From a virus: a stretch of DNA of 21,490 bases. Position numbers and translations under genes: made by a program. The stretch is taken from the IMG/VR virus record IMGVR_UViG_3300012925_000020, positions 1 to 21,490 of that record. The stretch is one strand, 5' to 3'. Numbering within the stretch: position 1 is the first letter of the stretch; every line of letters starts with the position of its first letter. Positions 493 to 21,490 of the stretch are shown piece by piece. The notes under the pieces are model-generated. The model saw only the letters and a list, made by a program, of their open reading frames with translations, was not told the origin of the DNA and ran no database searches.

Positions 493-498
493 AAATAC

Positions 499-915: not shown

Positions 916-939
916 CACGTCAATTTTTAAATAAATTTT

Positions 940-1344: not shown

Positions 1345-1375
1345 ACCACCCCGAAGGTACTGTGGGCGGCTTCGG
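1332..1375 (+). promoter_or_regulatory. Programmed -1 frameshift signal with possible pseudoknot
   Basis: The heptamer T TTT TTT (1332-1338) lies in the X XXY YYZ register of the upstream frame, so both P- and A-site tRNAs can re-pair after a -1 slip. The zero-frame stop TAG follows at 1342-1344. Downstream, CCAC (1346-1349) can pair with GTGG (1362-1365) and CCGAAG (1351-1356) with CTTCGG (1370-1375). These pairings interleave, so they form an H-type pseudoknot that begins 7 bases after the heptamer, within the usual 5-9 base spacing. The 5-base loop between the stems is longer than in many known examples. The pairing was found by eye and no energy was computed. Confidence 0.6.
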
Positions 1376-3500: not shown

Positions 3501-3501
3501 A

Positions 3502-5914: not shown

Positions 5915-5916
5915 TC

Positions 5917-7063: not shown

Positions 7064-7070
7064 ATATCTG

Positions 7071-7101
7071 ATTGACAGGATAAAGGTAAGTATTATATTT
7101 T
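7071..7101 (+). promoter_or_regulatory. Promoter candidate for the second tail operon
   Basis: TTGACA at 7072-7077 is followed after 16 bases by TATATT at 7094-7099. The same site also fits the Bacteroidota pattern, with ATTG at 7071-7074, 19 bases, then TATATTTT at 7094-7101, one base away from TAnnTTTG. The start of transcription would be about 7106-7108, roughly 10 bases before the ATG at 7117. Upstream forward transcription must cross an antisense gene to reach here, so a fresh promoter makes sense. On the reverse strand a perfect TATAAT (7097-7092) and TACCTTTA (7088-7081) are weak candidates for the metzincin promoter. Confidence 0.45.
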
Positions 7102-7114
7102 TAAAAATCTAATA
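7091..7114. repeat. 24-bp near-perfect A/T palindrome in the divergent promoter region
   Basis: The left arm TATTATATTTTT (7091-7102) and the right arm AAAAATCTAATA (7103-7114) are reverse complements at 11 of 12 positions. The centre is at 7102/7103. The palindrome covers the forward -10/-7 candidate and the reverse TATAAT, and ends 2 bases before the ATG at 7117. It could be an operator for a dimeric regulator of both genes. With no G/C stem it is a poor candidate for a terminator. Confidence 0.6.
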
Positions 7115-7116
7115 CA

Positions 7117-7830
7117 ATGAAATTCAACATCAACACGGACGCGGCTGTAAAATTCACCAACACCCTGGAAAAGATGCACCGTTCAGCCCTTCCGTCGGCA
7201 ATCCGGGCCACCCTGAACAGTGCCGCTTTTGATGTGAAACAAAACACAATGCCCCAGCAGGCCCGCCAGGACTTCACAAACAGGGCCCCAAATTTCTTTC
7301 GAGCGAATAGCAAAGTGTCAAAAGCTGATGGCTGGGACGTGAACAATATGCAATCTGTGGTGGGGTTTACACCGGGCAGCGGCCGGGCGGTCGATAAAGC
7401 CGTGGGCGAATTGGAACAGCAGGAATACGGGGGAAGCATTGGTGGCCGTGGATTTATTGCCATGGATGCCGCACGCGGGGGCGCGGGCGCGAAGCCGGTC
7501 CGCCCAGGGAACAGGCTTTCCAGAATACAAAACCTGATAGATTCAAAGAAATTCCCCGGAACTGCCAAAGCGCAATTTATTGCAGCGGCTAAAAAGGCAG
7601 GAAAGGGGGGCTTTGTTTTGGGCAATACTGCCCGCGGGACGGTATGGCGGATCGATTCAATAGGCCGTAGTGGGATTAAAAAAACGGCCATGTATTCATT
7701 TCGGAAGGGGCGCACGGTGCGGGTTGGGGCCACTCATTTCATGCAAACGGCAAGCCTTGAAAGTGCGAATAAAATGGATGACATTTACGCAAAGGAGGCC
7801 GCCCGACAAATCGACCGGTTAAACAAATGA
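7117..7830 (+). CDS. Minor tail / tail-completion protein, gpZ-like architecture
   Basis: The 237-residue basic protein begins with a helical region (residues 8-60) of the form A-V-K-F-T-N-T-L-E-K-M then L-P-S-A-I-R-A-T-L-N-S-A-A-F-D-V. This resembles the start of lambda gpZ and related tail-completion proteins, in which a two-helix N-terminus is followed by an Arg/Lys-rich beta region. The middle is Gly-rich (109-128), and the C-terminal 100 residues are strongly basic with K-K-T-A-M-Y-S-F-R-K-G-R-T-V-R-V near 186-201 and a final helix. It is the first gene after the divergent promoter island and overlaps the next by ATGA. The family assignment is from overall pattern; another neck or minor tail protein is possible. 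Confidence 0.5.
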   Translation: MKFNINTDAAVKFTNTLEKMHRSALPSAIRATLNSAAFDVKQNTMPQQARQDFTNRAPNFFRANSKVSKADGWDVNNMQSVVGFTPGSGRAVDKAVGELEQQEYGGSIGGRGFIAMDAARGGAGAKPVRPGNRLSRIQNLIDSKKFPGTAKAQFIAAAKKAGKGGFVLGNTARGTVWRIDSIGRSGIKKTAMYSFRKGRTVRVGATHFMQTASLESANKMDDIYAKEAARQIDRLNK

Positions 7831-9053
7831 GTTGGATACAGAACATTGAACGTCCTTACATAATCAGAACAGGCGATGGGAAAGAATATCGCCCCCTTTG
7901 GAAAAATTCCAGCCGGTCCCAGGACTTCAATACCACATCGTTCGACTTTGTAGATCAGCCTGGCACCCTGGTGGATCGGCGCGAGGCCAGGGGTAGCGAG
8001 ATCCCTTTGGAAATTTACTTTGTGGGGGAAGATCATTTGGATGAAGCTGAAGCGTTCCGCATATCTGCAAACGACAAAAGGGCATGGACCATATCACACC
8101 CCCTTTACGGCACCCTGATCGTTCAGCCCACCGGCCTAAGTATCGATAACAATGAATTCAACGTATCGAGAATCACCGGCATGATGCTGGAAACCTTGAC
8201 GGAAGATTCCCCGAAAATGACCGTGGACCCGGTGAACAAAATCGGGCTCGATAAAGCTGACCTGGATGAAACGATGGCGGCAGCCTTTGCCACAAACGTG
8301 GAGCCCGATACGGCCGATGTTGTGAGCCTGGGCAACAACAACACCAGCCTTTACAAAGTCGGCGTAAAGAAGGTTAAATTGACCTTTGACGCGCAGGAGT
8401 ATTTTGATAGGTTCAACAAAGCAGATTCCGCCATTATCAACGCAACGTCCGAACCGCTGGCCGCGATCCGGGAATTGCAGGCGGTCATAACATACCCCGG
8501 GCTTTTTGCTGACAGCGTACAAAACAGACTGACCACGCTGGTGCAACAATTCAACACCCTTCGCCTGGGGCTGACCACTATTTTAAGTCCATCGGGAAAA
8601 AGGATCTATGAAAACAATGCCGGCACGCTCATTTCTTCGATGGCGTTGGCCACCTCCACCCCGCAGGCCGGTGATTATAAGAACCGCACCGATGTGGCGC
8701 AGGTCATGAACACGCTTTCCGGTTCGTACCGTCTTTATCTGAATGACCTGGACGGCATGCAAACCGACAATGGTGGCACGACGGAAAGCTATATTCCGGA
8801 TGCCGATTCGATGCGTGGGTTGGATGAGATCGTGAAATTCACATTGTCCAATCTCTTTAACATTGCCCTTGACGCGCGCCAGGAAAGGACTTTAATTTTG
8901 GAATATGATTCGAATGCGATTCTTTTAACGCATCGCCTGTATGGGCCAGACCCGACGGATACCACTTTGGATTCGTTTATCGAAAGCAATAAGATAGGAT
9001 TGAACCGGTTGTTGGAAATACCGAAGGGCACAATTCTGATTTACTACGTATGA
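7827..9053 (+). CDS. DNA circularisation-type tail protein, Mu gpN-like
   Basis: This 408-residue protein resembles Mu gpN, annotated in databases as 'DNA circularisation protein N-terminal' but in Mu a tail/baseplate component. The N-terminal 100 residues carry the family pattern: an early basic Y-R-P-L-W, a segment V-D-Q-P-G-T-L-V-D-R-R-E, then E-I-P-L-E-I-Y-F-V-G-E-D-H, and W-T-I-S-H-P-L-Y-G near 88. The last match is a typical baseplate/tail core signature. A long helical C-terminal region follows. The gpP-like gene comes next with an ATGA overlap, as in Mu. The name-implied DNA function should not be taken literally. Confidence 0.8.
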   Translation: MSWIQNIERPYIIRTGDGKEYRPLWKNSSRSQDFNTTSFDFVDQPGTLVDRREARGSEIPLEIYFVGEDHLDEAEAFRISANDKRAWTISHPLYGTLIVQPTGLSIDNNEFNVSRITGMMLETLTEDSPKMTVDPVNKIGLDKADLDETMAAAFATNVEPDTADVVSLGNNNTSLYKVGVKKVKLTFDAQEYFDRFNKADSAIINATSEPLAAIRELQAVITYPGLFADSVQNRLTTLVQQFNTLRLGLTTILSPSGKRIYENNAGTLISSMALATSTPQAGDYKNRTDVAQVMNTLSGSYRLYLNDLDGMQTDNGGTTESYIPDADSMRGLDEIVKFTLSNLFNIALDARQERTLILEYDSNAILLTHRLYGPDPTDTTLDSFIESNKIGLNRLLEIPKGTILIYYV

Positions 9054-10105
9054 TTTTAAAAATCAATGACCGCATCCGCACCCGGACGGTGAAATTTTTC
9101 AGTGACTTCGATTTAACGCTACGTTACGACGCGGTTGCGTCAGGCTTTGGTTTCAAAATGTACTTCGATCCGGACAACCTGGAACATAAGGAAATGTTGT
9201 GCATCGGTCACGATCACATAGCAACCCTTGAACATGAGGGGCAATTACTTTTGACCGGGTACATAATGAGCCAGGGATTTAATGATTCGAAGGAAACCGA
9301 ATTAGTGGGTATTTCGGGTTATTCTTTCCCGGGAATCCTGGAAGACTGCCAAATTCCGGTGGAGCTCTACCCGCTTCAATATGATGGGCTGACGCTGCGC
9401 GAGATTTCCCAAAAGTTGCTTTCTTATTTCCGGATCACCATGGTTGTGGATCCCAGCGTGTCGGCTGAAATGGACAAGGCCTATGAAAAGACCACGGCCG
9501 AACCTACGCAAACAATAAAAGAATACCTGGCGTCGCTGGCCGGTCAACGGAACATTGTGATAACCCACAATGAAAAAGGACACCTGGTATACACAAAGGC
9601 AAAGACCAACCGGAAACCAATTTTGGATTACAACGGGGAAATACCGTTCACCAACATGGCGTTGGACTTTGGTGGCCAGGATATGCACTCGACCATCACG
9701 GTGATAAAACAAGCTGATTCTAAAGGAGGCAATGCCGGCGAGGCAACGGTAACAAATCCTTTCGTGCCCTTTGTCAGGCGCCCGCGCGTGGCCACGCAAA
9801 GTTCGGGGGATGACAACGACACCTTGGAGGTCGCAAAAAACATCCTGGCGGATGAACTTCGCGGGTTAAAATTAACCATCACCTCGGATCGCTGGGACGT
9901 GAATGGCGTGATTGTAAAGCCCAATAACCTGATAACCGTGAAAAACCCACGGATATATCTTTACAAAAAGGCCACCTGGTTTATTGAGCAAGTGGACTAT
10001 AAAGGGGACGAGAAAAACCAAACCCTGACAATGACATGTTGTTTGCCGGAAGTGTATTCAGCAGCCGAGCCCACCTATCTTTTCAAAGGAATAAACATGC
10101 ACTAA
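9050..10105 (+). CDS. Baseplate hub protein, Mu gpP (gp44)-like
   Basis: The 351-residue protein matches the hub proteins of Mu-like and P2-like tails (related to T4 gp27), which form the ring joining tube and spike. Visible family features are the beta-rich N-terminus with L-L-L-T-G-Y-I-M and S-G-Y-S-F-P-G-I-L-E-D-C-Q-I-P (about residues 65-103), the short helical L-T-L-R-E-I-S-Q-K-L-L-S-Y-F-R-I segment, then P-T-Q-T-I-K-E-Y-L-A-S-L-A near 153. The C-terminal region returns to beta structure with W-F-I-E-Q-V-D-Y near 322. It lies between gpN-like and gp45-like genes, as in Mu, with a 1-base gap downstream. Confidence 0.85.
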   Translation: MILKINDRIRTRTVKFFSDFDLTLRYDAVASGFGFKMYFDPDNLEHKEMLCIGHDHIATLEHEGQLLLTGYIMSQGFNDSKETELVGISGYSFPGILEDCQIPVELYPLQYDGLTLREISQKLLSYFRITMVVDPSVSAEMDKAYEKTTAEPTQTIKEYLASLAGQRNIVITHNEKGHLVYTKAKTNRKPILDYNGEIPFTNMALDFGGQDMHSTITVIKQADSKGGNAGEATVTNPFVPFVRRPRVATQSSGDDNDTLEVAKNILADELRGLKLTITSDRWDVNGVIVKPNNLITVKNPRIYLYKKATWFIEQVDYKGDEKNQTLTMTCCLPEVYSAAEPTYLFKGINMH

Positions 10106-10106
10106 A

Positions 10107-10640
10107 ATGCTATCGATCACGAAAGTAATTTCAGCGGAAATAGACAATCTTAAAAGGCGTGTCGTTAAAATACTCCGGTTCGGCTTATCGGATGTACAAA
10201 CAGCATTGGAGGCCGGCCCGTTCGGCATAGACTCGAATCCTCCGAAAGGCATGGTTGCCATTTATGGGCCGACCAATGAGAAAGGGCAAACCGTGATTGT
10301 TGGGTATCTCAACAAAAACCAGTTGGCGGAACCTGGGGAGCACCGGGTTTATTCAGTAAAGGCCGACGGCACGGTGGCCATTTACATTTGGATGAAAGCC
10401 GACGGGACAATGGAAATAGGGGGTGCCGCTAAAAACCTGGCCAGGTTTCAGGAATTGAAATCCGGATTTGATGAACTGAAAAACAACTTCAATGATCACG
10501 TCCAAAAATGGAATCTGTTCGCGGCAGCTTACGTGCCTGGGGGACCGTCTTCACCGGGAACCCCGCCAACGGCTTCAACATCCACAGCTTCGACCGCCAG
10601 CGTGGACGGGGCAAAAATAGACGAACTGAAAACTTTATAA
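10107..10640 (+). CDS. Baseplate spike protein, Mu gp45 / P2 gpV-like
   Basis: This 177-residue protein fits the trimeric central spike that pierces the outer membrane. After an N-terminal helix (1-35) comes an OB-fold-like part, with P-P-K-G-M-V-A-I-Y-G (around 50) and G-Q-T-V-I-V-G-Y-L-N, then short strands with R-V-Y-S, D-G-T-V-A-I-Y-I-W and D-G-T-M-E-I-G-G, as in the family. A helix of about 112-138 and a Pro/Ser/Thr/Ala-rich tail (142-165) end the protein. In Mu and P2 spikes the tip binds iron through an HxH motif. I find no HxH here; His occurs only in E-H-R and D-H-V. Position after hub supports the call. Confidence 0.75.
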   Translation: MLSITKVISAEIDNLKRRVVKILRFGLSDVQTALEAGPFGIDSNPPKGMVAIYGPTNEKGQTVIVGYLNKNQLAEPGEHRVYSVKADGTVAIYIWMKADGTMEIGGAAKNLARFQELKSGFDELKNNFNDHVQKWNLFAAAYVPGGPSSPGTPPTASTSTASTASVDGAKIDELKTL

Positions 10641-10660
10641 AAAAAGGTTAGATTTGGATT

Positions 10661-10981
10661 ATGGTCGTATACAGTTCAGCCGCGGCGTATATCGAAAGCT
10701 GCAAAACCCTACGGGATAAGATAATTGCCATCGATGCGATCATTGCCGCGTTAATGACAACCGCGTTACTCGCGGCGACGAACGACAACATATCGCAATA
10801 TTCGCTTAATGATGGGCAGACCATTATAAACACGTCTTATCGTGGAGTTGCCGGCATCACCAAATCTATCATGGATATGGAGGCATTAAAGCAATTGTAC
10901 CTGAACCGGTTAAATGGACGGATGACGCGATTGGTGGATAGTAAAAACTTCCCTGGCCCTGGATATTACAATGGAAAATAA
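10661..10981 (+). CDS. Head-tail joining protein, gpW-like
   Basis: The 106-residue protein lies directly upstream of the portal, as lambda gpW does. The pattern also fits: N-terminal helices (residues 5-40), a beta-hairpin candidate S-Q-Y-S-L-N-D-G-Q-T-I-I-N-T-S-Y (45-60), then a helix with I-T-K-S-I-M-D-M-E-A-L-K-Q-L (66-79), ending in an R-rich segment and G-P-G-Y-Y. Lambda gpW likewise has helix, hairpin, a 'S-V-S-D-L-K-K-Y-I' type helix and a G-P-A-G-F-Y end. GpW plugs the portal after packaging and prepares it for the tail. It overlaps the portal gene by 11 bases. The protein is longer than lambda gpW (68 residues), mainly at the N-terminus. Confidence 0.65.
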   Translation: MVVYSSAAAYIESCKTLRDKIIAIDAIIAALMTTALLAATNDNISQYSLNDGQTIINTSYRGVAGITKSIMDMEALKQLYLNRLNGRMTRLVDSKNFPGPGYYNGK

Positions 10982-12725
10982 GTATCAGACAAAAGCCCAA
11001 AAACAGGCAAGCTTTAACGATCGTCTCCACGCGCACACGCGCGCGGGATCTTTCGGCGGCATGCCGGAAAAATCAATCGTTCCGACCATTGTGGCAGAAG
11101 CGGAACCGGTCCGCGAGAACGGGAACATGGCCCAGCCGAAAAGTGCGAACTTCTTTTGGGGGTCCACGGGGATGTCGCGTTTCATGTTTGCCACCGGATT
11201 CGATGGGGAGAAAAATTTGGGTGAACTAGGCCCGATAAAATCATATTTTCCGCTTTATGATTTCTTGCGCCTGCGCTCCTGGCAAGCCATGATGGAAAGC
11301 GAATTGGCGCAGATAGTTATGGGCCGTTACCTGACGTGGGTGGTTGGTAGTGGATTAAAGCTACAGGCCGAACCGTCAAAACGGGTGCTGAAGGATGAGG
11401 GCATAACGCTGGACGTAACCGATTTTTCCGAAACGGTAGAATCCCGCTTTTCGGTTTTCGCTGATCTAAAGGAAACGGATTATGCTCGAATGAATGACCT
11501 GAACACGCAGGCCAGTGACGCGTTGAAAAATGCCATCATTGGCGGGGACGTGCTGGTGGTGCTGCGTTATGAAAGTAAAAATATCACCCTTCAATTGATA
11601 GATGGTTGCCATGTTGTTTCACCACCGGGTCAGCCCGGAAATGATATTTTTGCCCCGGTCCTCCCCAATGGTAACCGCATTATAAACGGGATAGAGCTTT
11701 CCCCGAAGAATCAACACATTGCGTATTACGTCAGAAAATCAGCCCTGGAAGGGAATGAACAATTGAGTTTTGAAACGGTACGCATCGCCGCCAGGGGCAC
11801 GGGTAAAAACGACAACCTGGTGACGGCGTTCATGATATACGGTTCCAAATATCGCCTGGACAACCATCGCGGGTTGCCGCTTATCGGCGTGATGCTGGAA
11901 ACGATGAAGAAATTGGAGCGCTACAAGGAAGCCACTGTGGGCAGTGCCGAAGAGCGTGCGAAGGTGCCATGGACAATTGAACACGCTTTGGGGTCCACCG
12001 GAGAAAACCCCATGATGAAGCAAATCGCCACCGCCTGGGGAACACCTGACGAAGATATTCCGGCCACAATAGAAGGCCAACGACTGGCCGATAAAGTGGC
12101 AGCGACCACAAACAAATCGGTTTATAACCTGCCAATCGCTTCTAAAATGACGGCATTGGACAGTAAACAGGAAATCAATTTTCCGGGATTTTACGGCACC
12201 AACATTGACATTTTTTGTGCGGCCATAGAGATCCCGCCAAACGTGGCCATGCAAAAATATGATGCCAATTTTTCGGCCAGTCGCGCGGCGCTGAAGGATT
12301 GGGAGCACACTTTGCAGGTGAAGCGGAAAAATTTCCAACGCCAGTTCTATCAGAATGTTTACAACTTTTGGATGGACATTCAAATTATGATCGGCGTCAT
12401 CGTGGCCCCAGGATATTTACAGGCGAAGTTTTCGAGCAATTACATGGTGATGGGAGCATACCGGAAATGTCGATTTGTGGGCGCGAGCGTTCCCCACATC
12501 GATCCGGTAAAAGAGGTCACTGCCGAACGCATGAAGCTGGGCGTAACCGGCGCGGCGATCCCGTTGACGACTGCGGAAGCTGCCACGGAATCCCTGAATG
12601 GTGGGGATTTTAATGCGAATTTGGAGCAATACGAAGACGAATTGGCACGCACAACGGAAGCCGGAATAGAAGTGCCCGTACCCGCTGGGCCTGCTGAGAA
12701 AGCGCCGGCGAAGGTGGAGGCATAA
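10971..12725 (+). CDS. Portal protein, lambda gpB family
   Basis: This 584-residue protein matches lambda-type portals, the dodecameric ring through which DNA enters and leaves the capsid. Family features seen are the early helical core with R-S-W-Q-A-M-M-E-S (102-110), G-S-G-L-K-L-Q-A (126-133), N-F-S-A-S-R-A-A-L (433-441), equivalent to the conserved Y-S-S-x-R-A segment, and V-P-H-I-D-P-V-K-E (507-515), equivalent to the W-x-x-I-D-P-x-K segment. The length is typical. The C-terminal 30 residues are Pro/Ala/Glu-rich and probably disordered. It starts within the end of the gpW-like gene. No terminase gene precedes it, which is unusual. Confidence 0.95.
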   Translation: MENKYQTKAQKQASFNDRLHAHTRAGSFGGMPEKSIVPTIVAEAEPVRENGNMAQPKSANFFWGSTGMSRFMFATGFDGEKNLGELGPIKSYFPLYDFLRLRSWQAMMESELAQIVMGRYLTWVVGSGLKLQAEPSKRVLKDEGITLDVTDFSETVESRFSVFADLKETDYARMNDLNTQASDALKNAIIGGDVLVVLRYESKNITLQLIDGCHVVSPPGQPGNDIFAPVLPNGNRIINGIELSPKNQHIAYYVRKSALEGNEQLSFETVRIAARGTGKNDNLVTAFMIYGSKYRLDNHRGLPLIGVMLETMKKLERYKEATVGSAEERAKVPWTIEHALGSTGENPMMKQIATAWGTPDEDIPATIEGQRLADKVAATTNKSVYNLPIASKMTALDSKQEINFPGFYGTNIDIFCAAIEIPPNVAMQKYDANFSASRAALKDWEHTLQVKRKNFQRQFYQNVYNFWMDIQIMIGVIVAPGYLQAKFSSNYMVMGAYRKCRFVGASVPHIDPVKEVTAERMKLGVTGAAIPLTTAEAATESLNGGDFNANLEQYEDELARTTEAGIEVPVPAGPAEKAPAKVEA

Positions 12726-12751
12726 AATTTTTTGATTCGAAATTTGGAATA

Positions 12752-12769
12752 GTTCAGATTTATCAGAAC
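12752..12769 (+). other. Hairpin just upstream of the protease gene
   Basis: GTTC-A-GA (12752-12758) can pair with TC-A-GAAC (12763-12769), with one A-A mismatch and a TTTA loop. It ends 13 bases before the protease ATG at 12783, in the 57-base gap after the portal. It could affect translation or be an operator half-site pair. The gap shows no clear promoter match. The stem is short, so chance is possible. Confidence 0.3.
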
Positions 12770-12782
12770 ATTCGCAACCATA

Positions 12783-13862
12783 ATGGCTAAAGAAATCCTT
12801 TTATACGGTTATATCAGTGACTACAGTGCGCAGATTGCAATGCAGCAAATGATTGATTCCGACGATAAAGATTTCACTTTAAGAGTCAACACATCCGGCG
12901 GTGATCCCGAATCTATCGGTGGGTTGGTGGCCAAAATTCAGGAGGCCGGCATTAAAAGGATGAAGGTGGACGATAAAGCATATTCCGCGGGTGCCTGCGT
13001 TTTGCTGTTCGCTGACGATGTTGAATGCCTGGACACTTCCAACTTCATGATCCACCGCGCAGCCTTGTCGGAATATCAGGAAGAAAATGAGGTATATTTC
13101 ACCGGAGCAATTCGTGAAAATTTGGAGTCTGTGAACGCCAATTTGGATAAAGCCATGAAGGCGCGTATTGATGTTCAGGCTCTTCAAACGATCATGGATG
13201 AACGGGAATACCTGAAGGGCGCAAAAGTGAAGGACATTTTTTCCATGGATTCGCGTATAGAGATTACATTGAACGCGAAGGAAGCGAAGAAAATAAAATT
13301 GGTGGACCGGATCATTAGCATCACCCCGCAGAAACGTGCGGAAATTGCACAAAACCTGTCTGCCGTTTGGAGTCAAAAAGCCGCTTTCGCGCTGACGCCA
13401 GTAAAGAAAGCGGAAGTGCCGGACCCTGAAATTCCCATCGAAGAACCAAAAAACGACTATATGAAAGCCGAAGAATACAAAGCGAAACACCCCGCTGAAT
13501 ACGAAGCTATTCGCAAGGAAGCCGCCGCCGCCGAAAAAGAAAGAATCGACGCCATCATGGTGTTCATTGCAGTGGACCCCAAAGTTTGTTTGGCGGCCAT
13601 TGAATCCGGTAAAGCATTGACGCCGAAACAGATCAATGAAATGGTCTTGAAACAGGCAAGCAAATTGGCATTGGCCGGTTTGGAAAAAGAATCCGCCGAA
13701 GGGGTTACCACGGAGGAAGAAACCGAGGAAGAAAAAGCGGCCAAACTTCAGGGTGCGACCGTAATTAAAAAAGTCGCATCAAAGGGTGAATATCAAAACC
13801 CCAAAGAGGCTGCCACTTTTGAAAAGTTGATCCAAGCAAATTTGAAACAATACGCCAACTAA
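12783..13862 (+). CDS. ClpP-family prohead protease with scaffold-like C-terminal region
   Basis: This 359-residue protein combines an N-terminal serine protease domain (about 1-185) with a charged helical tail (about 220-359). The protease part has the ClpP-like marks: S-G-G-D-P (38-42) of the oxyanion region, nucleophile Ser68 in A-Y-S-A-G-A, and His91 in F-M-I-H-R-A. The third catalytic residue is not assigned. Such S49/ClpP proteases mature the prohead. The tail is rich in Glu, Lys and Ala, with A-A-A-A-E-K-E-R near 247-254 and an acidic run near 310-317, as expected of a scaffold. In lambda the same arrangement exists (gpC with nested scaffold Nu3), and Met227 at 13461 could start an equivalent 133-residue protein. 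The stop codon lies inside a terminator hairpin. Confidence 0.88.
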   Translation: MAKEILLYGYISDYSAQIAMQQMIDSDDKDFTLRVNTSGGDPESIGGLVAKIQEAGIKRMKVDDKAYSAGACVLLFADDVECLDTSNFMIHRAALSEYQEENEVYFTGAIRENLESVNANLDKAMKARIDVQALQTIMDEREYLKGAKVKDIFSMDSRIEITLNAKEAKKIKLVDRIISITPQKRAEIAQNLSAVWSQKAAFALTPVKKAEVPDPEIPIEEPKNDYMKAEEYKAKHPAEYEAIRKEAAAAEKERIDAIMVFIAVDPKVCLAAIESGKALTPKQINEMVLKQASKLALAGLEKESAEGVTTEEETEEEKAAKLQGATVIKKVASKGEYQNPKEAATFEKLIQANLKQYAN

Positions 13863-13877
13863 GGTTCGGCGTTTTTT
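13852..13877 (+). terminator. Rho-independent terminator at the end of the protease gene
   Basis: ACGCC (13852-13856) pairs with GGCGT (13868-13872), and AAC (13857-13859) with GTT (13864-13866), leaving C13867 as a bulge and TAAG as the loop. The last stem T starts a run of six T (13872-13877). The protease stop TAA (13860-13862) is in the loop. Partial termination here would lower expression of downstream capsid genes unless they have their own promoter. Confidence 0.6.
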
Positions 13878-13906
13878 ATAAACTCATTTTTTAAAGTAAC
13901 CCGCTT

Positions 13907-14344
13907 ATGAGCACCAACAACATTCCGTATCAAACGCCCAACATGTTGATCGTGAACACGGACACGTCAAAAATTGCGATCTGGAATCCCAGAAGCCAAA
14001 AGGGCATTTACAATAACGGTACGTATGACGCCAGCACGGTGCCGGCGGGTACGCTCCTGGGACGTGTGAGCGCAACCGGCAAGCTGAAGGCGCTAGTTTC
14101 CACCGCGGTGGATGGTAGCCAATTGCCGGTGGGTGTCGCAATGGATGATTACGCCATTGATGAAGGAACGGACGGAACGATTTTCTTTTACGACATGGGC
14201 GACATTGTGGAAGGTGCAATAAAATTGCAAGGTGGTGACACGTTGGATACAGTGGTTTCGGGTCGTCGCCTTCGCGATCACCTGGCCGCGCAGGGTATCA
14301 AACTGGTGTCGGAAGCCGAACAAAGCGCTTACGACAATTCGTAA
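13907..14344 (+). CDS. Head decoration protein, lambda gpD-like
   Basis: The 145-residue protein matches the gpD family of capsid-stabilising proteins, which form trimers on the outside of the head after expansion. Family-like features are a Pro-rich flexible start, then short strands with V-P-A-G-T-L-L-G-R-V (45-54), V-G-V-A-M-D-D-Y (75-82), and an alternating G/D-rich C-terminal part with R-R-L-R-D-H-L-A-A-Q-G-I. It lies between the protease/scaffold gene and the major capsid gene, as in lambda (C-Nu3-D-E). It follows a hairpin terminator, so its expression may depend on read-through or an unseen promoter. No Shine-Dalgarno sequence is visible. Confidence 0.88.
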   Translation: MSTNNIPYQTPNMLIVNTDTSKIAIWNPRSQKGIYNNGTYDASTVPAGTLLGRVSATGKLKALVSTAVDGSQLPVGVAMDDYAIDEGTDGTIFFYDMGDIVEGAIKLQGGDTLDTVVSGRRLRDHLAAQGIKLVSEAEQSAYDNS

Positions 14345-14410
14345 CAGGGGAAAAACGCAAGGGGGAAAACTTTTTCTAAAACACACTTTTTTAGCCAAAC
14401 ACGAAACAGT

Positions 14411-15457
14411 ATGAATATTAACACGGTAGACGCTCAGACCCTTTACACCAAAACCCTGGTGGGGACTTACAAAGAGCGAATCAGACCCAAAGCCTTTTTG
14501 CGTTCCTTTTTTAAGGACGTGCCCCCGGTCCCCTCTTTGGAAATTTCCATTGAAGTGCAACGCGGTTTTGAAAAAGTTGCCGTGGATGTCACGCGCGGAT
14601 CGGATGGTAATTTGAACGGGTTCAATCGTTCGACGGAAAAAATTATCATCCCTCCGTATTTCCGGGAATACTTCCCGCTGACCAGCTTGCAATTTTATGA
14701 TCGCCTTTATGGTGCCACGTCCATCACTGACGCCGCATTCACTGCGCTGATCAATGACACAACCATTAAGATGGGTCAATTGCAGGACAAGATTGAACGC
14801 GCTTACGAACTGTTTTGCGCGCAAGTCCTGACCACCGGCGTGGTGTTGCTGGACGCGGCTTCGGATATTGATTTTCGTCGCAAAGCGGCATCCCTTGTGG
14901 ATCCCGGCGCCGGCCAGTATTTCGCCAACGCCATCAACCCGTTCACGCTGTTCGAGAATGGCGCGAACTTCCTTCGCCAGGTCGGTAAATCCCAGGGCGG
15001 CGTATTCAATGCCATTTTAGGTTCCCAGGCGTTGACCGATCTTTTGGCCAACGTTCAATTCAATGATCGTCAGAATCGTTTCAACATGAAGTTGGACGAT
15101 GTGATTGCACCCCAACGGCAGGCCATTGGTTCGTCATTCCACGGCGCGATCACTGCGGGAACCTATACGATCTTGTTGTGGTCGTATCCCGAATTTTACG
15201 ATAACGCAAGTAGCGTATCGACACCATATGTTGATCCCAAAAAGGTCATCATGTTGCCACAGTCTCCGGATTTCGTGATGTCATACGCGGCATGCCCTCA
15301 GCTTTTGAGCCCCAACACCCCGCCTGTGACCGGTGCGTTTATCTTCAGTGATTACATTGATGAGCGCAAGCGTGCACACGAATATCATTGTGAATCGGCA
15401 GGCCTTCCCGTCCCCGTGGCGATCGATCAGATCTACACGTTCAAGGCGGTAGCTTAG
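14411..15457 (+). CDS. Major capsid protein, lambda gpE-like
   Basis: This 348-residue protein is the probable shell subunit (HK97 fold, Phage_cap_E family). Features matching the family are the N-terminal helix with L-Y-T-K-T-L, the beta-rich start with I-S-I-E-V-Q-R-G (around 45-52), V-T-R-G-S-D-G-N (60-67), the K-I-I-I-P-P-Y-F-R-E-Y segment near 77-87, a spine helix region (112-135), and the C-terminal Y-V-D-P-K-K-V-I-M-L-P with the final Y-I-D-E-R. The length is close to lambda gpE (341). It lies 66 bases after the decoration gene. Strong expression would be expected, but the leader has no clear promoter or Shine-Dalgarno sequence. Confidence 0.93.
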   Translation: MNINTVDAQTLYTKTLVGTYKERIRPKAFLRSFFKDVPPVPSLEISIEVQRGFEKVAVDVTRGSDGNLNGFNRSTEKIIIPPYFREYFPLTSLQFYDRLYGATSITDAAFTALINDTTIKMGQLQDKIERAYELFCAQVLTTGVVLLDAASDIDFRRKAASLVDPGAGQYFANAINPFTLFENGANFLRQVGKSQGGVFNAILGSQALTDLLANVQFNDRQNRFNMKLDDVIAPQRQAIGSSFHGAITAGTYTILLWSYPEFYDNASSVSTPYVDPKKVIMLPQSPDFVMSYAACPQLLSPNTPPVTGAFIFSDYIDERKRAHEYHCESAGLPVPVAIDQIYTFKAVA

Positions 15458-15482
15458 AAAACCTTTTAAAAGTACCTTACAT

Positions 15483-15920
15483 ATGCAAAAGTATCTTGTC
15501 ATTGCCCTGTCTGTATCAGGGAAAGCGCCGAAACGGATTTACGATTCCGGCGATGTAGTTGATCAAACATGCTTCACTCGTCCGGTAGAGGACATCGAAA
15601 AGGAGGGCAGCATAAAGGCGATTTCTGACGAAGAGGCGGAAAAGCGGATTGCTGAAAACGCAAGCAAGTCCCCGTCATCCCCCGGCGTTATGAACCAAGT
15701 CCCCCCGCTGCCGAATTATGGCAGCCAGGGCCAGGAAGGTGGAGGTAAGGAATTGACATCCGAAGAGCTCGCGGAACAATTGAAGGCATCACGCCAAAAG
15801 GATTTCGATAAATTGTCGAAAGCCAAAGTGGTGGAATCGCTGACCGCGGCCGATGTAGAATTTGATCCGAAGACCAACAAAGACGATCTGTTTGACCTTT
15901 GGGTAGCAACTTTGGGATAG
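15483..15920 (+). CDS. Head protein with C-terminal HeH/LEM-like domain (gpFI position)
   Basis: This 145-residue protein occupies the place of lambda gpFI, right after the capsid gene. Three parts are visible: a small N-terminal beta segment (1-45) with Y-D-S-G-D-V-V, a low-complexity Ser/Pro/Gly/Glu linker (55-90), and a C-terminal helical region (90-145). The last 35 residues, with L-S-K-A-K-V-V-E-S-L near 111 and D-P-K-T-N-K-D-D-L-F-D-L-W near 128, look like a HeH/LEM or SAP-type helix-extended-helix domain, which often binds DNA. LEM-like domains are common at the ends of phage head proteins in this position. A packaging or head role is inferred, not shown. Confidence 0.55.
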   Translation: MQKYLVIALSVSGKAPKRIYDSGDVVDQTCFTRPVEDIEKEGSIKAISDEEAEKRIAENASKSPSSPGVMNQVPPLPNYGSQGQEGGGKELTSEELAEQLKASRQKDFDKLSKAKVVESLTAADVEFDPKTNKDDLFDLWVATLG

Positions 15921-15942
15921 ATTTATTTTTCATTTTCTTTTG
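15911..15942 (+). promoter_or_regulatory. Weak Bacteroidota-type promoter candidate before the connector gene
   Basis: TTTG at 15911-15914 is followed after 20 bases by TTCTTTTG at 15935-15942, one base from TAnnTTTG. A start near 15949 would place the following hairpin at the 5' end of the transcript. The region is T-rich, so chance matches are likely. It is offered only because a terminator lies directly before the next gene. Confidence 0.25.
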
Positions 15943-15952
15943 AGGAGAAAAA

Positions 15953-15985
15953 GCCCATTCGTCTAACACGATGGGCCTTTTTTTT
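15953..15985 (+). terminator. Strong rho-independent terminator touching the next start codon
   Basis: GCCCAT-T-CGT (15953-15962) pairs with ACGATGGGC (15968-15976), with one bulged T and a CTAAC loop. Eight T follow (15978-15985), and five A precede the stem (15948-15952), so it may act on both strands. The ATG of the next gene begins immediately at 15986. This is either a true terminator with an unusual downstream gene or a 5' leader hairpin. Confidence 0.8.
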
Positions 15986-16363
15986 ATGAGCCTGATACTA
16001 CAAGCAAAAACGGACATAGAACAAATAACATCCGACCCACAGGGGTTTGGATGGCCTTTGAAGTTCACGGCGAGGGTCGGCGGCGAAGTGGCCGAAGTGC
16101 GTGGATTGTACACGAAACACCACATGGGGTTCAATACCGAAGGTTTGATGACCAACATCAAAAACGCCCATTGTTCGTGTTCCGAAAAATTCCTGACGGA
16201 TCTGGGATACCCGACGCGAAACGCTGCCGGGGAATTAAGTATGAAGGGGGACAAAGTGGAGGTTGTGGACGTTAATGGCCAGGCCTGGACGTACATAATC
16301 AACGAACAATATCCCGATGAAACTGTGGGCCTAAATGTCTTTATGCTGGGCGATTATGAGTAG
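15986..16363 (+). CDS. Head-tail connector / head-closure protein candidate
   Basis: This 125-residue protein lies between head proteins and a tail-terminator candidate, the usual place of a head-closure or stopper protein (lambda gpFII, SPP1 gp16). The sequence is beta-rich, with a core of F-T-A-R-V-G-G-E-V (about 28-36) and K-V-E-V-V-D-V-N (about 91-98), and contains two close Cys (C-S-C at 65-67) that are worth noting. An ATG 15 bases earlier (15971) is in frame but lies in the terminator stem and would add M-G-L-F-F, so the start at 15986 is preferred. It overlaps the next gene by 8 bases if that gene starts at 16356. The function is inferred from position; no diagnostic motif was recognised. 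Confidence 0.5.
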   Translation: MSLILQAKTDIEQITSDPQGFGWPLKFTARVGGEVAEVRGLYTKHHMGFNTEGLMTNIKNAHCSCSEKFLTDLGYPTRNAAGELSMKGDKVEVVDVNGQAWTYIINEQYPDETVGLNVFMLGDYE

Positions 16364-16976
16364 CGTGATTCCGGAACTTTTACCAACCTGCGCCTTTGAA
16401 TTTGTGCGCGATCGTATCGGCGCCATCCTGGTGGATGAGTTTGCCGCCCAGGCTGCGTTGATGCCGCCGGGCCCTGATCAGGATTTGATTTTGAAGTTTC
16501 AGATTTATGTAGAACGCTTTATCCGGGTGGATAAAGAAGAGAACATTGTGAATGTTGTGATGGCGCGCGGCGATTACGATGGCCGTATTTCGGTTCAGGA
16601 GAACGGGACCTATACGTTTTTCCTGGACGTGTTTACGTCGGCGAAAACGACGGCCGCGATAGGCGGGGATTCCCGTGCAATGCTGCGCCTTCAAAAGGTT
16701 TTGGGGTTGTGCTGGAATATCCTGATGCATTCGAGGTATAAGACATTGGGATTTGAGATGCCTTTCATTGCCTCGCGCGCGGCCGTGAGTATGGAAATAA
16801 AACAACCGGATACGCAAAACAGCGATGCGGACAACCTAGTGATGGGGCGTTTAACGATGTCAGTAAAGGTGCGCGAGAATTCGGGCACGGTGTTGCCGCG
16901 GGTGGCGCAGGGGTTCGATACTTCGGCAAAATTAGATCTGACCGACAAGGGATATTTGTACATTCGAAATGCTTAA
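16356..16976 (+). CDS. Tail terminator protein candidate (gpU-type position)
   Basis: This 206-residue protein (from Met 16356; an earlier in-frame ATG at 16335 lies deeper in the preceding gene) sits after the connector gene. Its pattern fits a compact alpha/beta tail terminator: an N-terminal helix with F-V-R-D-R-I-G-A-I-L-V-D-E-F (17-30), then paired strands with F-Q-I-Y-V-E-R-F and V-N-V-V-M-A-R-G-D-Y-D-G, Y-T-F-F-L-D-V-F (82-89), a helix with R-L-Q-K-V-L-G-L-C-W-N-I-L, and final strands with M-G-R-L-T-M-S-V-K-V. Tail terminators cap the tube and join it to the head. In most myoviruses the sheath gene follows; here a fibre gene does. Medium confidence only. Confidence 0.5.
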   Translation: MSSVIPELLPTCAFEFVRDRIGAILVDEFAAQAALMPPGPDQDLILKFQIYVERFIRVDKEENIVNVVMARGDYDGRISVQENGTYTFFLDVFTSAKTTAAIGGDSRAMLRLQKVLGLCWNILMHSRYKTLGFEMPFIASRAAVSMEIKQPDTQNSDADNLVMGRLTMSVKVRENSGTVLPRVAQGFDTSAKLDLTDKGYLYIRNA

Positions 16977-16985
16977 TTTTATCAC

Positions 16986-19436
16986 ATGCCTTCAATAACC
17001 TACCCAGACAAAAGCAAATTCGATCCGGAAGGAACCCCAGACCGGCAGTGGAGAGACGTGGACGCCAACGAAGTGAAATTGGTGGTCAACGCGAAGCAAG
17101 ATGATTCCACGAATCTCACGGCCATTGCTGCGATTTCTACCAATGGGTATTTGAAACGCACCGGCCCGGGCTCCTGGGCAGTGGACGCAGGACCGTGGCC
17201 ATCACTGGCCGGGTTCATTGACTTCGCTGGCAACCGCCTGGGGAACCTGACGGACCCGGTGGGTGCGCAGGATGCCGATACGAAGGCCGCCAGGGATGCC
17301 GCTATTGCCACGGCGCTGGCCGCCATAGACGCGTTCGTTTTCAAGGGCGGTATAGATGCTTCGACCGAACCGGATTATCCTGCGGCCGACGCTGGATGGA
17401 CCTACAAGTTCACAGCGGACGGGAAGATTGGCGGCGCTGCGGGTATCGCGGTGAAAAGTGGAGACTCGATAATTTGTACCGAAGACGGCACGCCATCGGG
17501 AGATCAGGCCACCGTTGGGGACAAATGGATTATCATTCGCTCGAACCTAGACGGCGTGGTGATAGGGCCCAATGTAGCGGTCGATGAAAGGATTGCGGTT
17601 TTTGATCTGACCACCGGCAAGCTGATCAAGGACGGCGGCATGACTATCGCAGATGTGCTTGGTTATGCTGATGCTGGGGATGCTTTTGTCCAACAATATG
17701 CCGAGCAGATTACATCGTATGTGCCTGTTAAACAAGCGATGGATTGTGCGACTACTTCAGCTTTGCCGGCATATACAGCTTTTGTTGGTACAACAACACA
17801 ACTATTTGCCGACGTAAACGGATATTTCCCTTCAACGGACAGTGTCCTAAATGACGCAACGCATACGATTAGTAGAGTTTTGGTTAAGAATGAAGTTGGC
17901 GCCAATGCTAAGTATAATGGGACCTGGATTTTGCTATCCAAAGGCTCACCGTCAACCAAATGGCAATTAGGCAGGACGCTTGATTCGCAGGCAAATGGCA
18001 CAGACGGTCACGGGCTTGAGTTTGCTGAGGTGACTATTATCGCCGGGACGGTTAATGGAGGTAAAAGATTCAGACAGGAGAATGTGCCTATAGTTCTTGA
18101 TACGACAGATATACTATGGGTTGACCGTACGCCGATTACTGGCGGAACGGTTCCGGTTAAGGCCACGGCCGCTGAATTAAATACGGGTATAGATGATGCT
18201 AAGTTTGCCACCGCGTTTGGGCTTGAAGGATCGAAATACATCACACAAAGAGGCGGAAAGGTATACGCGGCAACATCGGGCACGAATACATACACAGTTT
18301 CTTTGACGCCGGCAATTACTGCATACACGGCAGGTCTATCGCTTAAAATAAAATTCGGGAATACAAACACGGGAGCATCTACATTGAATGTTGACGGACT
18401 TGGAGCAATATCAATGAAGAAGAACGTAAGCCTTGCGCTTGAAGCTAATGATCTGGTTACGGGTGGTATATACGAATGCGTCTATGACGGAACAAATTTC
18501 CAAGTCATAGGCCTGGCGGCTACAAGCGTTCCGAGTGCAAGCGAATCCACACAGGGCATTGCTGAAATCGCTACACAGGCAGAAACAAATGCGGGGACTG
18601 ACGATGCGCGTATAGTTACGCCCCTGAAGATTCAAGTAAAGAATGGTTTAAGGGCAACAAAGACCGCAAACTACCCTATTGTTTCTGGCGATAATCAAAC
18701 ACAAATAACTGCTAATTCTGCAAGCGTAATTAATATAACCATAGATCAGATGAGTACTGATTATTGGGTATGCGTTGTAAATATTGGGGCGGGGCAGGTT
18801 AATTTTGTGGCCGGATCAGGAGTAACATTATCGGGAATCTCATCCATTCCAGGCGGAACCAAAGGAGGGGTTTTTATTTGGTTTTCATCAGCCACCACTG
18901 CGTATATTTTTGGTTCTGGGGATGTTTCTTTCACAGATGTCATAAATCGCCCGACAACTATTTCTGGGTACGGTATTTCTAATGGTGTATCTATTATTTT
19001 CAATACCGGAACTACAGTTGGAAATGTTGGCACTGGAGAAGATGACCTACACACGTTTAGTGTGCCGGCTGGGACTATGTCGAATGATGGGGAGACTCTT
19101 ATTTTTGAATCAGCCGGAAGATTTGCAACTTCAGTTAACAACAAAAGAGTTAGGGTTCGATTTGGAGCTACAGTTGTTTTTGACTCTGCATCAATTGCGG
19201 TCACCACACAAGCTGATTGGGCTGTGCGTGTTTCTGTTTACCGTACCGGGGCATCAACACAAAGATGTATCGCCACATTTACAAGTGGATCCGCCGTTCT
19301 TTCGGTAACAAGTCAGTACGCAACAGCGGCGGAGAACCTAAGCGGGGCGATAACATTTAAAGTTACTGGCGAGGCCACGTCTAATGATGATGTTCAGGCT
19401 TTCTTTACTAAAATTAGAAAGGAGGGTTACGCATGA
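16986..19436 (+). CDS. Large tail fibre protein, mosaic
   Basis: The 816-residue protein has typical fibre modules. Residues 1-120 form an attachment part with G-N-L-T-D-P-V-G-A-Q-D-A-D-T-K (86-100), the common hinge before fibre shafts. Residues 120-250 include a carbohydrate-fibre type strand region. Later modules are S-T-Q-G-I-A-E-I-A-T-Q-A-E-T-N-A-G-T-D (521-539), N-R-P-T-T-I-S-G-Y-G-I-S (654-665) and a C-terminal receptor-binding type domain (670-816) with T-G-E-D-D-L-H-T-F-S-V-P-A-G-T and N-N-K-R-V-R-V-R-F-G. Near base 17640 (residue about 220) the DNA becomes much more A/T-rich, indicating that the distal part came from elsewhere. It probably decides host range. The gene ends in an SD-like sequence and overlaps the SGNH gene by 4 bases. 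Confidence 0.85.
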   Translation: MPSITYPDKSKFDPEGTPDRQWRDVDANEVKLVVNAKQDDSTNLTAIAAISTNGYLKRTGPGSWAVDAGPWPSLAGFIDFAGNRLGNLTDPVGAQDADTKAARDAAIATALAAIDAFVFKGGIDASTEPDYPAADAGWTYKFTADGKIGGAAGIAVKSGDSIICTEDGTPSGDQATVGDKWIIIRSNLDGVVIGPNVAVDERIAVFDLTTGKLIKDGGMTIADVLGYADAGDAFVQQYAEQITSYVPVKQAMDCATTSALPAYTAFVGTTTQLFADVNGYFPSTDSVLNDATHTISRVLVKNEVGANAKYNGTWILLSKGSPSTKWQLGRTLDSQANGTDGHGLEFAEVTIIAGTVNGGKRFRQENVPIVLDTTDILWVDRTPITGGTVPVKATAAELNTGIDDAKFATAFGLEGSKYITQRGGKVYAATSGTNTYTVSLTPAITAYTAGLSLKIKFGNTNTGASTLNVDGLGAISMKKNVSLALEANDLVTGGIYECVYDGTNFQVIGLAATSVPSASESTQGIAEIATQAETNAGTDDARIVTPLKIQVKNGLRATKTANYPIVSGDNQTQITANSASVINITIDQMSTDYWVCVVNIGAGQVNFVAGSGVTLSGISSIPGGTKGGVFIWFSSATTAYIFGSGDVSFTDVINRPTTISGYGISNGVSIIFNTGTTVGNVGTGEDDLHTFSVPAGTMSNDGETLIFESAGRFATSVNNKRVRVRFGATVVFDSASIAVTTQADWAVRVSVYRTGASTQRCIATFTSGSAVLSVTSQYATAAENLSGAITFKVTGEATSNDDVQAFFTKIRKEGYA
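19418..19426 (+). promoter_or_regulatory. Strong Shine-Dalgarno sequence for the SGNH hydrolase gene
   Basis: AAAGGAGGG ends 6 bases before the ATG at 19433, a nearly ideal Shine-Dalgarno site. No other gene in the window has one of comparable strength. It lies inside the last codons of the fibre gene (K-E-G-Y-A). Bacteroidota generally use little Shine-Dalgarno pairing, so this stands out. Confidence 0.7.
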
Positions 19437-20635
19437 GACGTTTTTTTCCTGGTATATTTTCTCGCGGTCTTGATCTGCCCACGGTACCACTCGGGGTATT
19501 ACTAAACGATTCGTTCGATAGATTATCATTAGGCTCTGACTATACAGTTCTAGGCACGCCAACTATTAGTATGGATGGCGCTGATTTAATTGTTAGCGGT
19601 GGCACTGGTGGTGTATATACTAATAGAATAAATTGGAATAAGTACGCTCAGTGTCTTACTAAATTTAAAATCACACTCCCCTATCAACAAGTAGACAATA
19701 CTTCTACGAGTACTGGCCCTGCCATTGGTACAAAAACATTAAACACTGCGGAGTCATTGCGCAGATCATTTTTAGGTATTGCTCTTTCCACCACTGGTGC
19801 CAGTGAGGGCAAGATCACGTTACAGGCTGGTAATACTACGGCCGATGGATTTGTTGGTGCTGTAACTTCTGGCACAACCGCTGTTATAGTTGCTGGAGAT
19901 GAATTAGTATTTATCTTCGAAAGGAACGGAAACACGTATACGGGAACCCTTACAAACATTACACAATCTTATTCCAGGAATTTATCATACACTGCAATAC
20001 CGCCTAGCGGTCCATCGCAGAGTATTAATAACATGGGTAATTTTGCGATTTGGATATTGGGCGGTACGCAGAATATTCACAGTTTTAAGATAGAATCGGA
20101 TACCTTAAAAAACCCCAATGCTATATTTATTGGTGACTCAATAACATCTGGGTTCTTTGCGACTAGCTATACGGGAAAATTTGCAGATCAGGTAGCATTC
20201 AATAAAGGTTGGTCATTTGAAGTACTGGCAGGCCCTAGCGATTACGTAGTTGGGTACAACGATACTAAAGCCAGGGATTTTTTCGGCCTATTTACTCCCG
20301 GAAGATTCCTTGTAATGACTGGTGGGAATGACTTGTTTTTCGGATACTCTTTATCAACTGTGCAAAGCAATTACACAGTTTTTATAAATTATCTTAAATC
20401 ACGCGGTGCATCAGTTGTGCACTTGTTAGCTACGCCACGGAACAATATAGATTTGACCGCTTGGAATGCCTGGTTGGTTTCTAACTATGGTAGCACCGAT
20501 TTAGTCATAGACACATACACGCCTTTAAAGGGCGCGGGCACAGGCATTAGCCCCACATATGATAACGGTGATGGAGTCCATCCCAATCAAGCTGGCCATA
20601 ATCTGATAGCATCAACTATAATCTCGGCATTATGA
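19433..20635 (+). CDS. SGNH/GDSL-family esterase, fibre-associated
   Basis: This 400-residue protein has an N-terminal beta-rich domain (about 20-222), possibly a lectin-like or fibre-attachment sandwich, and a C-terminal SGNH hydrolase domain (about 228-400). Catalytic blocks are visible: F-I-G-D-S-I-T (232-238, nucleophile Ser236), a Gly in A-G-P-S-D (266-270, block II), T-G-G-N-D (296-300, Asn299), and D-G-V-H-P-N (380-385, with Asp380 and His383). SGNH enzymes often remove acetyl groups from polysaccharides or cut esters. As a fibre neighbour it may trim surface glycans during attachment, which is inference. There is no signal peptide. DNA is A/T-rich compared with neighbours. It overlaps the fibre gene by ATGA and the next gene by ATGA. 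Confidence 0.85.
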   Translation: MRRFFPGIFSRGLDLPTVPLGVLLNDSFDRLSLGSDYTVLGTPTISMDGADLIVSGGTGGVYTNRINWNKYAQCLTKFKITLPYQQVDNTSTSTGPAIGTKTLNTAESLRRSFLGIALSTTGASEGKITLQAGNTTADGFVGAVTSGTTAVIVAGDELVFIFERNGNTYTGTLTNITQSYSRNLSYTAIPPSGPSQSINNMGNFAIWILGGTQNIHSFKIESDTLKNPNAIFIGDSITSGFFATSYTGKFADQVAFNKGWSFEVLAGPSDYVVGYNDTKARDFFGLFTPGRFLVMTGGNDLFFGYSLSTVQSNYTVFINYLKSRGASVVHLLATPRNNIDLTAWNAWLVSNYGSTDLVIDTYTPLKGAGTGISPTYDNGDGVHPNQAGHNLIASTIISAL

Positions 20636-20982
20636 CTGATTACCAAAAAGTTGTTCTTTTGATGGGGGGGTTTACAAACCTTCAGTTTGCGACCGGGACG
20701 ATTTTGTTTATCCGGGCATTGTATCGGAATCCTAAGTTACAAGCCCACGCGGAACAATCGGTACAAGATGGGGACACGGTCACCCATTGGGCTGACGGCC
20801 GAAATGTCACGGCGTTAGCGATTGGTATTTGGATTGCCTGGTTTACGGTCAATAGCGGAATTATTATTCTTTTTGAAAAGCTGTTTGATTGGGGTCCGTT
20901 AACATTCGTCGCTGGCGCGGCGGGTTTTGCGGCGGCCCTGATAGGCGTGAAATGGAAAGCCCCGGAAGTACCAAGGCCATAA
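20632..20982 (+). CDS. Small membrane protein, holin candidate
   Basis: The 116-residue protein has three predicted membrane segments, around residues 7-29, 60-81 and 88-106, with a polar loop (31-58) between the first two and a short charged tail. Holins are small proteins with one to three membrane segments that make holes in the inner membrane at the end of infection. Its place after the fibre/esterase genes and before another membrane protein suits a lysis cassette. Base composition returns to that of the rest of the window. Start overlaps the SGNH stop as ATGA. No family motif was recognised, so holin is a position-based suggestion. Confidence 0.5.
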   Translation: MTDYQKVVLLMGGFTNLQFATGTILFIRALYRNPKLQAHAEQSVQDGDTVTHWADGRNVTALAIGIWIAWFTVNSGIIILFEKLFDWGPLTFVAGAAGFAAALIGVKWKAPEVPRP

Positions 20983-21004
20983 TTTTTTAACCACCCTATG
21001 AGAC

Positions 21005-21406
21005 GTGACAACACTTTTTTGGCTCATAATAATCGGATGCATCCTTTGCGTTGGCTGGATGTTGCATGTAGAGGTTTGCAAAGCTGCCTTAGAAGAACAG
21101 CGCAAAATATTGGAAAAAGAATCGCAAGAAAGGTTTGCGCTACTCATCAACCGATTCAACCACGAAGGGCCGATACCGCCGAACGCTTCAATGGTTGGGT
21201 TGACAAAAATTATTTCCTGGGACCTCGAACAACGTATCAACGAATACTGGAAGTTACTGGACTTGAAGGAATGGAATACAAGGGAGAACACGCAGCGTCT
21301 TAACGACTTGCTGAACGACATCATAATGTTGAACCGGGCGGCGAAGAATTTCGACGAGAGCCGCCGGAAGCTGATGAAAGAATTTGAAAACGATCAAGGT
21401 TTATGA
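21005..21406 (+). CDS. Single-pass membrane protein with coiled-coil, spanin-like candidate
   Basis: This 133-residue protein starts at GTG 21005; the in-frame TGA at 20999-21001 rules out any earlier start. Residues 3-20 form a strong N-terminal membrane segment, followed by charged helices (24-52 and 95-130) that may form a coiled coil. That is the general shape of inner-membrane spanins (lambda Rz type), which join the membranes during lysis. Position after a holin candidate supports this, but there is no outer-membrane partner in the window and the central W-rich part (72-90) is not diagnostic. An ATG at 20998 opens another frame to 21303 that looks like a shadow. It overlaps the next gene by ATGA. 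Confidence 0.5.
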   Translation: MTTLFWLIIIGCILCVGWMLHVEVCKAALEEQRKILEKESQERFALLINRFNHEGPIPPNASMVGLTKIISWDLEQRINEYWKLLDLKEWNTRENTQRLNDLLNDIIMLNRAAKNFDESRRKLMKEFENDQGL

Positions 21407-21490
21407 ATACAATCTTAAAATTGCTCACATGGCTGATCCCGATCGGGGTCAACGTTTACGTGGACCGGAATGGCCGCAAACCTGGGAAGA
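21403..21490 (+). CDS. Small hydrophobic protein, N-terminal part (partial)
   Basis: The gene begins with ATG at 21403, overlapping the preceding stop as ATGA, and runs off the window. The visible 29 residues start M-N-T-I-L-K-L-L-T-W-L-I-P-I-G-V and continue V-Y-V-D-R-N-G-R. The first 16 form a hydrophobic stretch that could be a membrane segment or a signal. Too little is present for a family call. The overlap makes it a likely co-translated member of the lysis-region operon. Confidence 0.6.
   Translation, partial: MNTILKLLTWLIPIGVNVYVDRNGRKPGK

Follow-up and report, generated by a model that had tools for sequence, protein, structure and literature searches.

Probable replacement of a receptor-binding cassette behind a kept fibre anchor in a contractile-tailed Bacteroidota phage

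Introduction

The fibres of T-even phages were reportedly treated by Tetart et al. in 1998, and to our knowledge the receptors of the Bacteroidota phage group considered here are poorly known. One study describes receptor-binding domains that are swapped while the N-terminal anchor stays conserved, and conserved motifs flank the swapped domain (PMC10408124). The present locus resembles that system in that the anchor is kept, the distal receptor-binding part appears to be exchanged and the sequence at the border is conserved. It differs in three respects: the border motifs in PMC10408124 are DNA sequences conserved across six genera of lytic phages, whereas the conserved element here is a protein module at loci of 28-74% G+C among the matches listed; the connector at our border was negative in a DNA-level hotspot test; and in our case the foreign codon style extends to a second gene, which encodes an enzyme. 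A second kind of system comprises the fibres with an SGNH esterase domain in Klebsiella prophages and coliphage G7C (gp63.1), which are reported to be active esterases, and SGNH domains that occur in proteins adjoining the receptor-binding protein (PMC13123978). The likeness is an SGNH enzyme tied to a receptor-binding protein; the differences are that the host groups are remote and that activity and substrate of our enzyme are predictions.

The DNA analysed here, hereafter the window, is an entire virus record of 21,490 bases. We conclude that a receptor-binding cassette was very probably replaced in a contractile-tailed phage of Bacteroidota. The window is a case of known mosaicism, a receptor-cassette exchange of a known kind seen at unusual resolution, with both borders of the fibre-and-enzyme exchange resolved, the first to within some ten codons and the second at the end of a gene.

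Results and Discussion

Phage group and gene order

From 5' to 3', the window encodes the end of the sheath, the tube, the tape measure, baseplate proteins, the hub and the spike, followed by the portal, protease, capsid, head-completion genes, fibre, esterase and two small membrane proteins (several of these names were assigned by synteny with annotated relatives). Sequence homology identifies it as part of the genome of a contractile-tailed phage like Flavobacterium phage FCL-2 and Cellulophaga phage phiSM: portal, capsid, sheath and baseplate genes are homologous and ordered within blocks as in these Bacteroidota myoviruses, and the portal and g21 matches are Flavobacterium and Cellulophaga phages. 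Identity to FCL-2 (Ficleduovirus) and phiSM is 38-40% for the portal, 34-35% for the capsid and 50-54% for the sheath end. Inside the head block and inside the tail block, all three phages have their genes in a common order. In the window, however, the tail block comes first and g21 is followed by the fibre cassette, whereas in FCL-2 and phiSM it is followed by the sheath. Six contigs are closer than these two phages, with capsids 47-53% identical to that of the window, and the major capsid protein of L010, a contig from a Bacteroidota MAG, is 58% identical. Block order varies within the group (window 1-492 and 16335-16976; L004, L006, L008 and L009 against L003 and L010).

The upstream neighbour of the fibre, g21 (16335..16976, + strand; phrog_4671), has core codon use, and its relatives are annotated as 'structural protein' or 'head closure Hc1'. 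An alignment scan found relatives of g21; a single-protein scan, which detects close relatives only, returned none.

A break in GC3 and codon usage

The original prediction of a sharp drop in G+C within the fibre gene, near codon 220 and through the esterase, drew on sampled 60-base lines whose values are exact (17161-17220, 71.7%; 18961-19020, 35.0%; 19621-19680, 30.0%). Alone, such lines are weak evidence, as 4.7% of the window's 60-base lines are no higher than 35%, several of these lying in other parts of it. Raw G+C is 49.2% in 1-16985, 57.9% in 16986-17640, 45.2% in 17641-19436, 41.8% in 19433-20635 and 47.1% after 20635; the fall starts at a local peak (the anchor) and ends somewhat below average, and segmentation of raw G+C gives a single break at 18626, not at 17640. 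The break is one in third-codon-position G+C (GC3) and codon usage more than in raw G+C.

Fibre codons 1-219 have a GC3 of 0.65, against 0.36 for the remaining fibre codons and 0.355 for the esterase, and at the next gene GC3 recovers. Segmentation across all genes gave exactly three segments, up to 17648 (0.569), 17649-20658 (0.359) and from 20659 (0.558). Within the fibre, the best break falls between codons 219 and 220 (17643, + strand), with support from 17634 to 17664 (31 bases) and a log-likelihood gain of 26.4 (maximum of 500 permutations, 8.8; largest gain among the 23 other genes of at least 100 codons, 5.03); GC3 is 0.67 in the 24 codons before it and 0.29 in the 24 codons after it. 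The lower border is the esterase stop, which the next gene overlaps. The drop near codon 220 and the recovery after about 20635, where the downstream genes are core-like, are thus both borne out in GC3, and the change is abrupt rather than gradual. A second fibre-like gene (5917-6639; phrog_5194), located after the baseplate genes, falls in GC3 from 0.60 to 0.43 towards its end (gain 3.1).

Synonymous codon use was compared with 5,389 core codons of the window. Both the distal fibre (G/df 4.94, p 3e-23) and the esterase (G/df 3.81, p 2.5e-15) differ from the core, whereas the anchor does not differ significantly (G/df 1.35, p 0.07) and the two downstream genes are indistinguishable from the core (G/df 1.30); capsid against portal, as a yardstick, gives G/df 1.31. 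Values of GC3s are 0.353 and 0.340 for the distal fibre and the esterase, 0.637 for the anchor and 0.551 for the core. A codon model trained on the esterase gave the distal fibre a positive score; its scores were negative for the anchor, for the genes downstream and for each of the 21 core genes. The unusual block therefore consists of the distal fibre and the esterase. The anchor had been said to share the G/C-rich style of the head genes, which holds for synonymous codon use but not for raw G+C (58% vs 49%).

The distal fibre and the esterase differ little from each other (G/df 1.50, p 0.021), although they are not perfectly identical in codon use, and this difference was counted against a cassette replacement, as was the raw G+C break at 18626. 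Their contiguity and similar codon use suggest that they were acquired together, so this part of the original prediction stands with that reservation. Should the fibre tip and the esterase move as a pair, they would lead straight to the host glycan.

The fibre slot in relatives

A relative of g21 was present at 80 loci. It is directly followed by the sheath at 23 of them and by another gene at 47, and ten loci are too short to tell; in the 47, the contents of the slot vary from locus to locus. For a comparison of GC3, 34 slot genes of at least 280 residues were taken from 29 loci chosen among these 47 (near-duplicates and short loci were left out, and a locus lacking a long slot gene contributed nothing). 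The slot genes track the GC3 of their own core (slope 0.99, offset -0.04, residual SD 0.041, n = 34). The counter-case named with the original prediction, relatives of the same composition across the whole fibre gene, did not occur: the 34 genes predict about 0.52 for the window, and its distal fibre and esterase have 0.36, which is 0.16 lower (about 3.9 residual SD).

These data bear on the possibility that nothing was imported and that distal fibres and their enzymes have a lower GC3 from relaxed codon selection or amino-acid make-up. The 34 slot genes do lie on average 0.046 below their core, which leaves room for an intrinsic share in the drop, and the slot genes of L299, L305 and L294 fall from the N-terminal to the distal part, that of L299 (9308-10876; core GC3 0.53) sharply from 0.55 to 0.31 (gain 14.9, weaker than in the window). 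However, the window lies far under the slot-gene trend, the difference sits in synonymous codons, and the border is confined to 31 bases, whereas relaxation would not stop at a codon. In relatives, mild lowering of GC3 is the rule and strong breaks are rare; no fibre-type gene with an internal break gain above 5 was detected in L003, L010, phiSM and FCL-2. We regard an origin without import as improbable, and a horizontal origin of the block as likely.

The esterase and the distal fibre

The gene at 19433..20635 (+ strand) encodes a predicted SGNH/GDSL esterase of 400 aa, with an N-terminal domain and an SGNH domain (residues 232-390). SGNH/GDSL enzymes are marked by a GDS serine, the asparagine of a GxND block and a histidine block near the C-terminus, and these catalytic blocks are present as GDSI (234-237), GGND (297-300) and GVHPN (381-385). 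Two profiles score above their curated cut-offs (PF13472, 54.8 bits against 32.9; PF00657, 29.2 bits against 23.6). The same slot in L010 holds a fibre anchor fused to an enzyme of equal two-domain layout (24% identity, pair E 1e-10), which keeps GDS, ND and HPN and has an SGNH profile score of 25.1 bits, below the curated cut-off of 32.9; when the window enzyme was searched against the whole L010 genome, no match reached E 0.001. An SGNH domain is also present in phiSM gp09. Given the L010 slot and gp09, this kind of gene, though perhaps not the present allele, may have long been part of the lineage. Elsewhere, phages gave three distant records (best 31.8% identity) and plasmids none, and the genomes of L010's class and order gave one weak match in 395 and none in 87, respectively; no donor was found in these searches, which counts against a replacement. 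No relatives were found in IMG/VR (single-protein scans), in genome_contigs or in a two-row alignment scan, where the pattern-based scans find close relatives only. The enzyme would remove ester-linked acyl (probably acetyl) groups from a surface glycan; our best inference is a glycan de-esterase that works with the fibre, and it is probably part of the virion.

The distal fibre (residues 220-816; 17643..19433, + strand), with its foreign codon use, contains module B (about residues 417-512), collar repeat C (residues 518-548) and a C-terminal tip. Domain matches to phrog_910 (tail collar fibre, 1.6e-9) and phrog_972 (8e-9) place it among phage tail fibres. Module B recurs in Bacteroidota genomes at 30-52% identity, in many of them with module A (see below) and the collar repeat in other orders, and a fibre-module match was present in 22 of the 395 and 7 of the 87 genomes searched. 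For the tip, only remote relatives were found (30.7%), and its single-sequence model (residues 556-816) has a pLDDT of 35. No relatives of the whole fibre were found in IMG/VR (single-protein scans) or genome_contigs, where pattern-based scans find close relatives only.

Module A, the connector and the position of the join

Upstream of the break lies module A (about residues 97-192; 17274..17561, + strand), a small beta module widespread in phage fibres, followed, just ahead of the break, by a likewise widespread fibre connector of about 25 residues, GPNVAVDERIAVFDLTTGKLIKDGG (residues 194-218; 17565..17639, + strand). Module A is common to the window and 30 other viruses (40-54% identity). 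In PHROGs, one tail-fibre family is hit in 19 of the 31, and the module A region matches phrog_28473 (tail fibre, 8.2e-4); Pfam and NCBIfam gave scattered weak matches and no convincing model. In the predicted structure, residues 116-186 or so have a pLDDT of about 95 and the connector, a low-confidence linker, about 60. With a confident module core followed by such a connector, the join in the window falls in linker sequence that separates two modules. The module A model had no PDB match at E <=0.001, where the best rows of a second look were two fibre or tailspike entries (Z about 3, not decisive), and 13 predicted viral proteins matched at E <=0.001, several of them named tail fibre.

Two sets of sequences were used, the first selected by the connector motif and the second by module A alone. 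The connector scan of IMG/VR returned at least 119 stretches, at loci with the range of G+C given above for the matches listed. The five best IMG/VR matches to module A of the window (37-52% identity) all stop at window residues 221-224; other matches run past the connector (L068 and L090 to residue 301, L014 to 280). Among 176 pairs with at least 60 shared upstream residues, which are mutually dependent and were selected so that their connectors are in register, homology stops no more than 15 residues past the connector in 90, a border at the module edge; the later ends number 8, 2, 7, 3, 2, 1, 0 and 0 per 15 residues, with a further peak at 135-165 residues. The second set comprised, among the matches listed, at least 121 matches, 84 real modules and 68 non-redundant ones, the last followed by the connector in 33 cases, by an 'AANNLSD' stretch in 11 and by other sequence in 24. 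The connector is therefore one of several followers, and two borders are seen in this set, of which the first follows module A and the second follows the connector.

The connector does not mark composition breaks or DNA borders in general. In 96 reading frames including the window, the others hold 20 strong breaks (gain >=6), of which one is no more than 15 codons away from the end of the connector, against 1.05 expected; as breaks elsewhere have no preference for the connector, the window does not illustrate any general rule of composition. At the DNA level, in a set made up largely of a single phage family, 3 of 102 internal blastn ends fell in the connector zone (5.9 expected), which gives no support to the connector as a recombination-hotspot motif. 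Near-identical distal DNA in L040/L125 and in L066/L067/L076 (with L110) starts about 23 codons before TGK, so the border in these families is at the upstream edge of the connector, whereas that of the window is at the downstream edge. What we claim is hence a join at a module edge, not a hotspot. No direct or inverted repeats of at least 16 bases were detected in 16900-21490, and an invertible segment or repeat-driven exchange was rejected on that ground. A literature text search with connector letter strings gave no match, which means only that they are not printed in the texts covered.

Since module A and the connector are common to many phages, a metagenomic contig could have been misjoined there from two phages. 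This would require two in-frame or abutting joins, with resident codon use resuming at the esterase stop; moreover, fibre-type genes occupy the slot in relatives too, and the connector DNA just upstream of the break still follows the GC3 pattern of the resident genome. We consider such an assembly chimera very unlikely.

A further idea, which we put forward as possible but doubtful, is that module A and the connector form an uncurated fibre joint that crosses lineages of about 30% to 70% G+C and accepts unrelated distal parts, the window being a freshly caught case. If this were true, receptor cassettes would move between very different phages. The pair would aid the parsing of fibre genes in many phages. 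In L132, module A and the connector occur in tandem copies, and in L133, L134 and L265-L284 (Bacteroidota genomes) module A and collar repeats alternate several times per fibre gene.

The anchor is kept in relatives

The N-terminal anchor of the fibre (about residues 1-45; 16986..17120, + strand) is kept in relatives in the same slot, as had been proposed. A profile built from the first 45 residues of L299, L290 and L313, with the window excluded, matched the N-terminus of the window fibre with E 1.5e-10, and among 9,802 reading frames its only other matches were the source loci and the duplicates L300 and L314. The link rests on these loci, in which the anchor is on a short separate protein with differing followers; in a profile comparison, the anchor of L010 and L003 did not match that of the window significantly (E 0.098). 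The best reading is that fibre codons 1-219 (anchor, module A and connector) belong to the resident genome. That the anchor rather than the distal part was imported, for which its raw G+C peak (58%) and its GC3s somewhat above the core could be cited, is scarcely credible, given that its codon use is not significantly different from the core and that the lineage itself has this N-terminus as its anchor at the corresponding slot.

A model for the replacement

Under the cassette replacement that we favour, the lineage would have kept the anchor while a cassette of about 3.0 kb (distal fibre and SGNH esterase, 17643-20635), from a source of lower GC3 (about 0.36 vs 0.57), replaced an older one. 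With the join in a flexible linker that directly follows a folded module, the chimeric fibre, presumably a trimer, could still fold and dock. The distal fibre would recognise a surface glycan, its likely target, and the SGNH enzyme would de-esterify the same glycan. Swapping fibre tip and enzyme could thus change host range and leave virion attachment intact.

Downstream and other genes

Core composition resumes in a gene for a small, probably holin-like membrane protein (20632..20982, + strand), which overlaps the esterase stop. The next gene (21005..21406, + strand) has core codon use and encodes a protein with an N-terminal membrane segment, possibly spanin-like. No convincing match to either protein was found in the loci (best E 0.038). 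On the opposite strand amid the tail genes (6626-7063, - strand), a lipoprotein-like gene of 145 aa matches the Matrixin profile at 3.8e-4, below the cut-off, and contains HEFGHYMGREHN, which we take to be a metzincin-type zinc motif.
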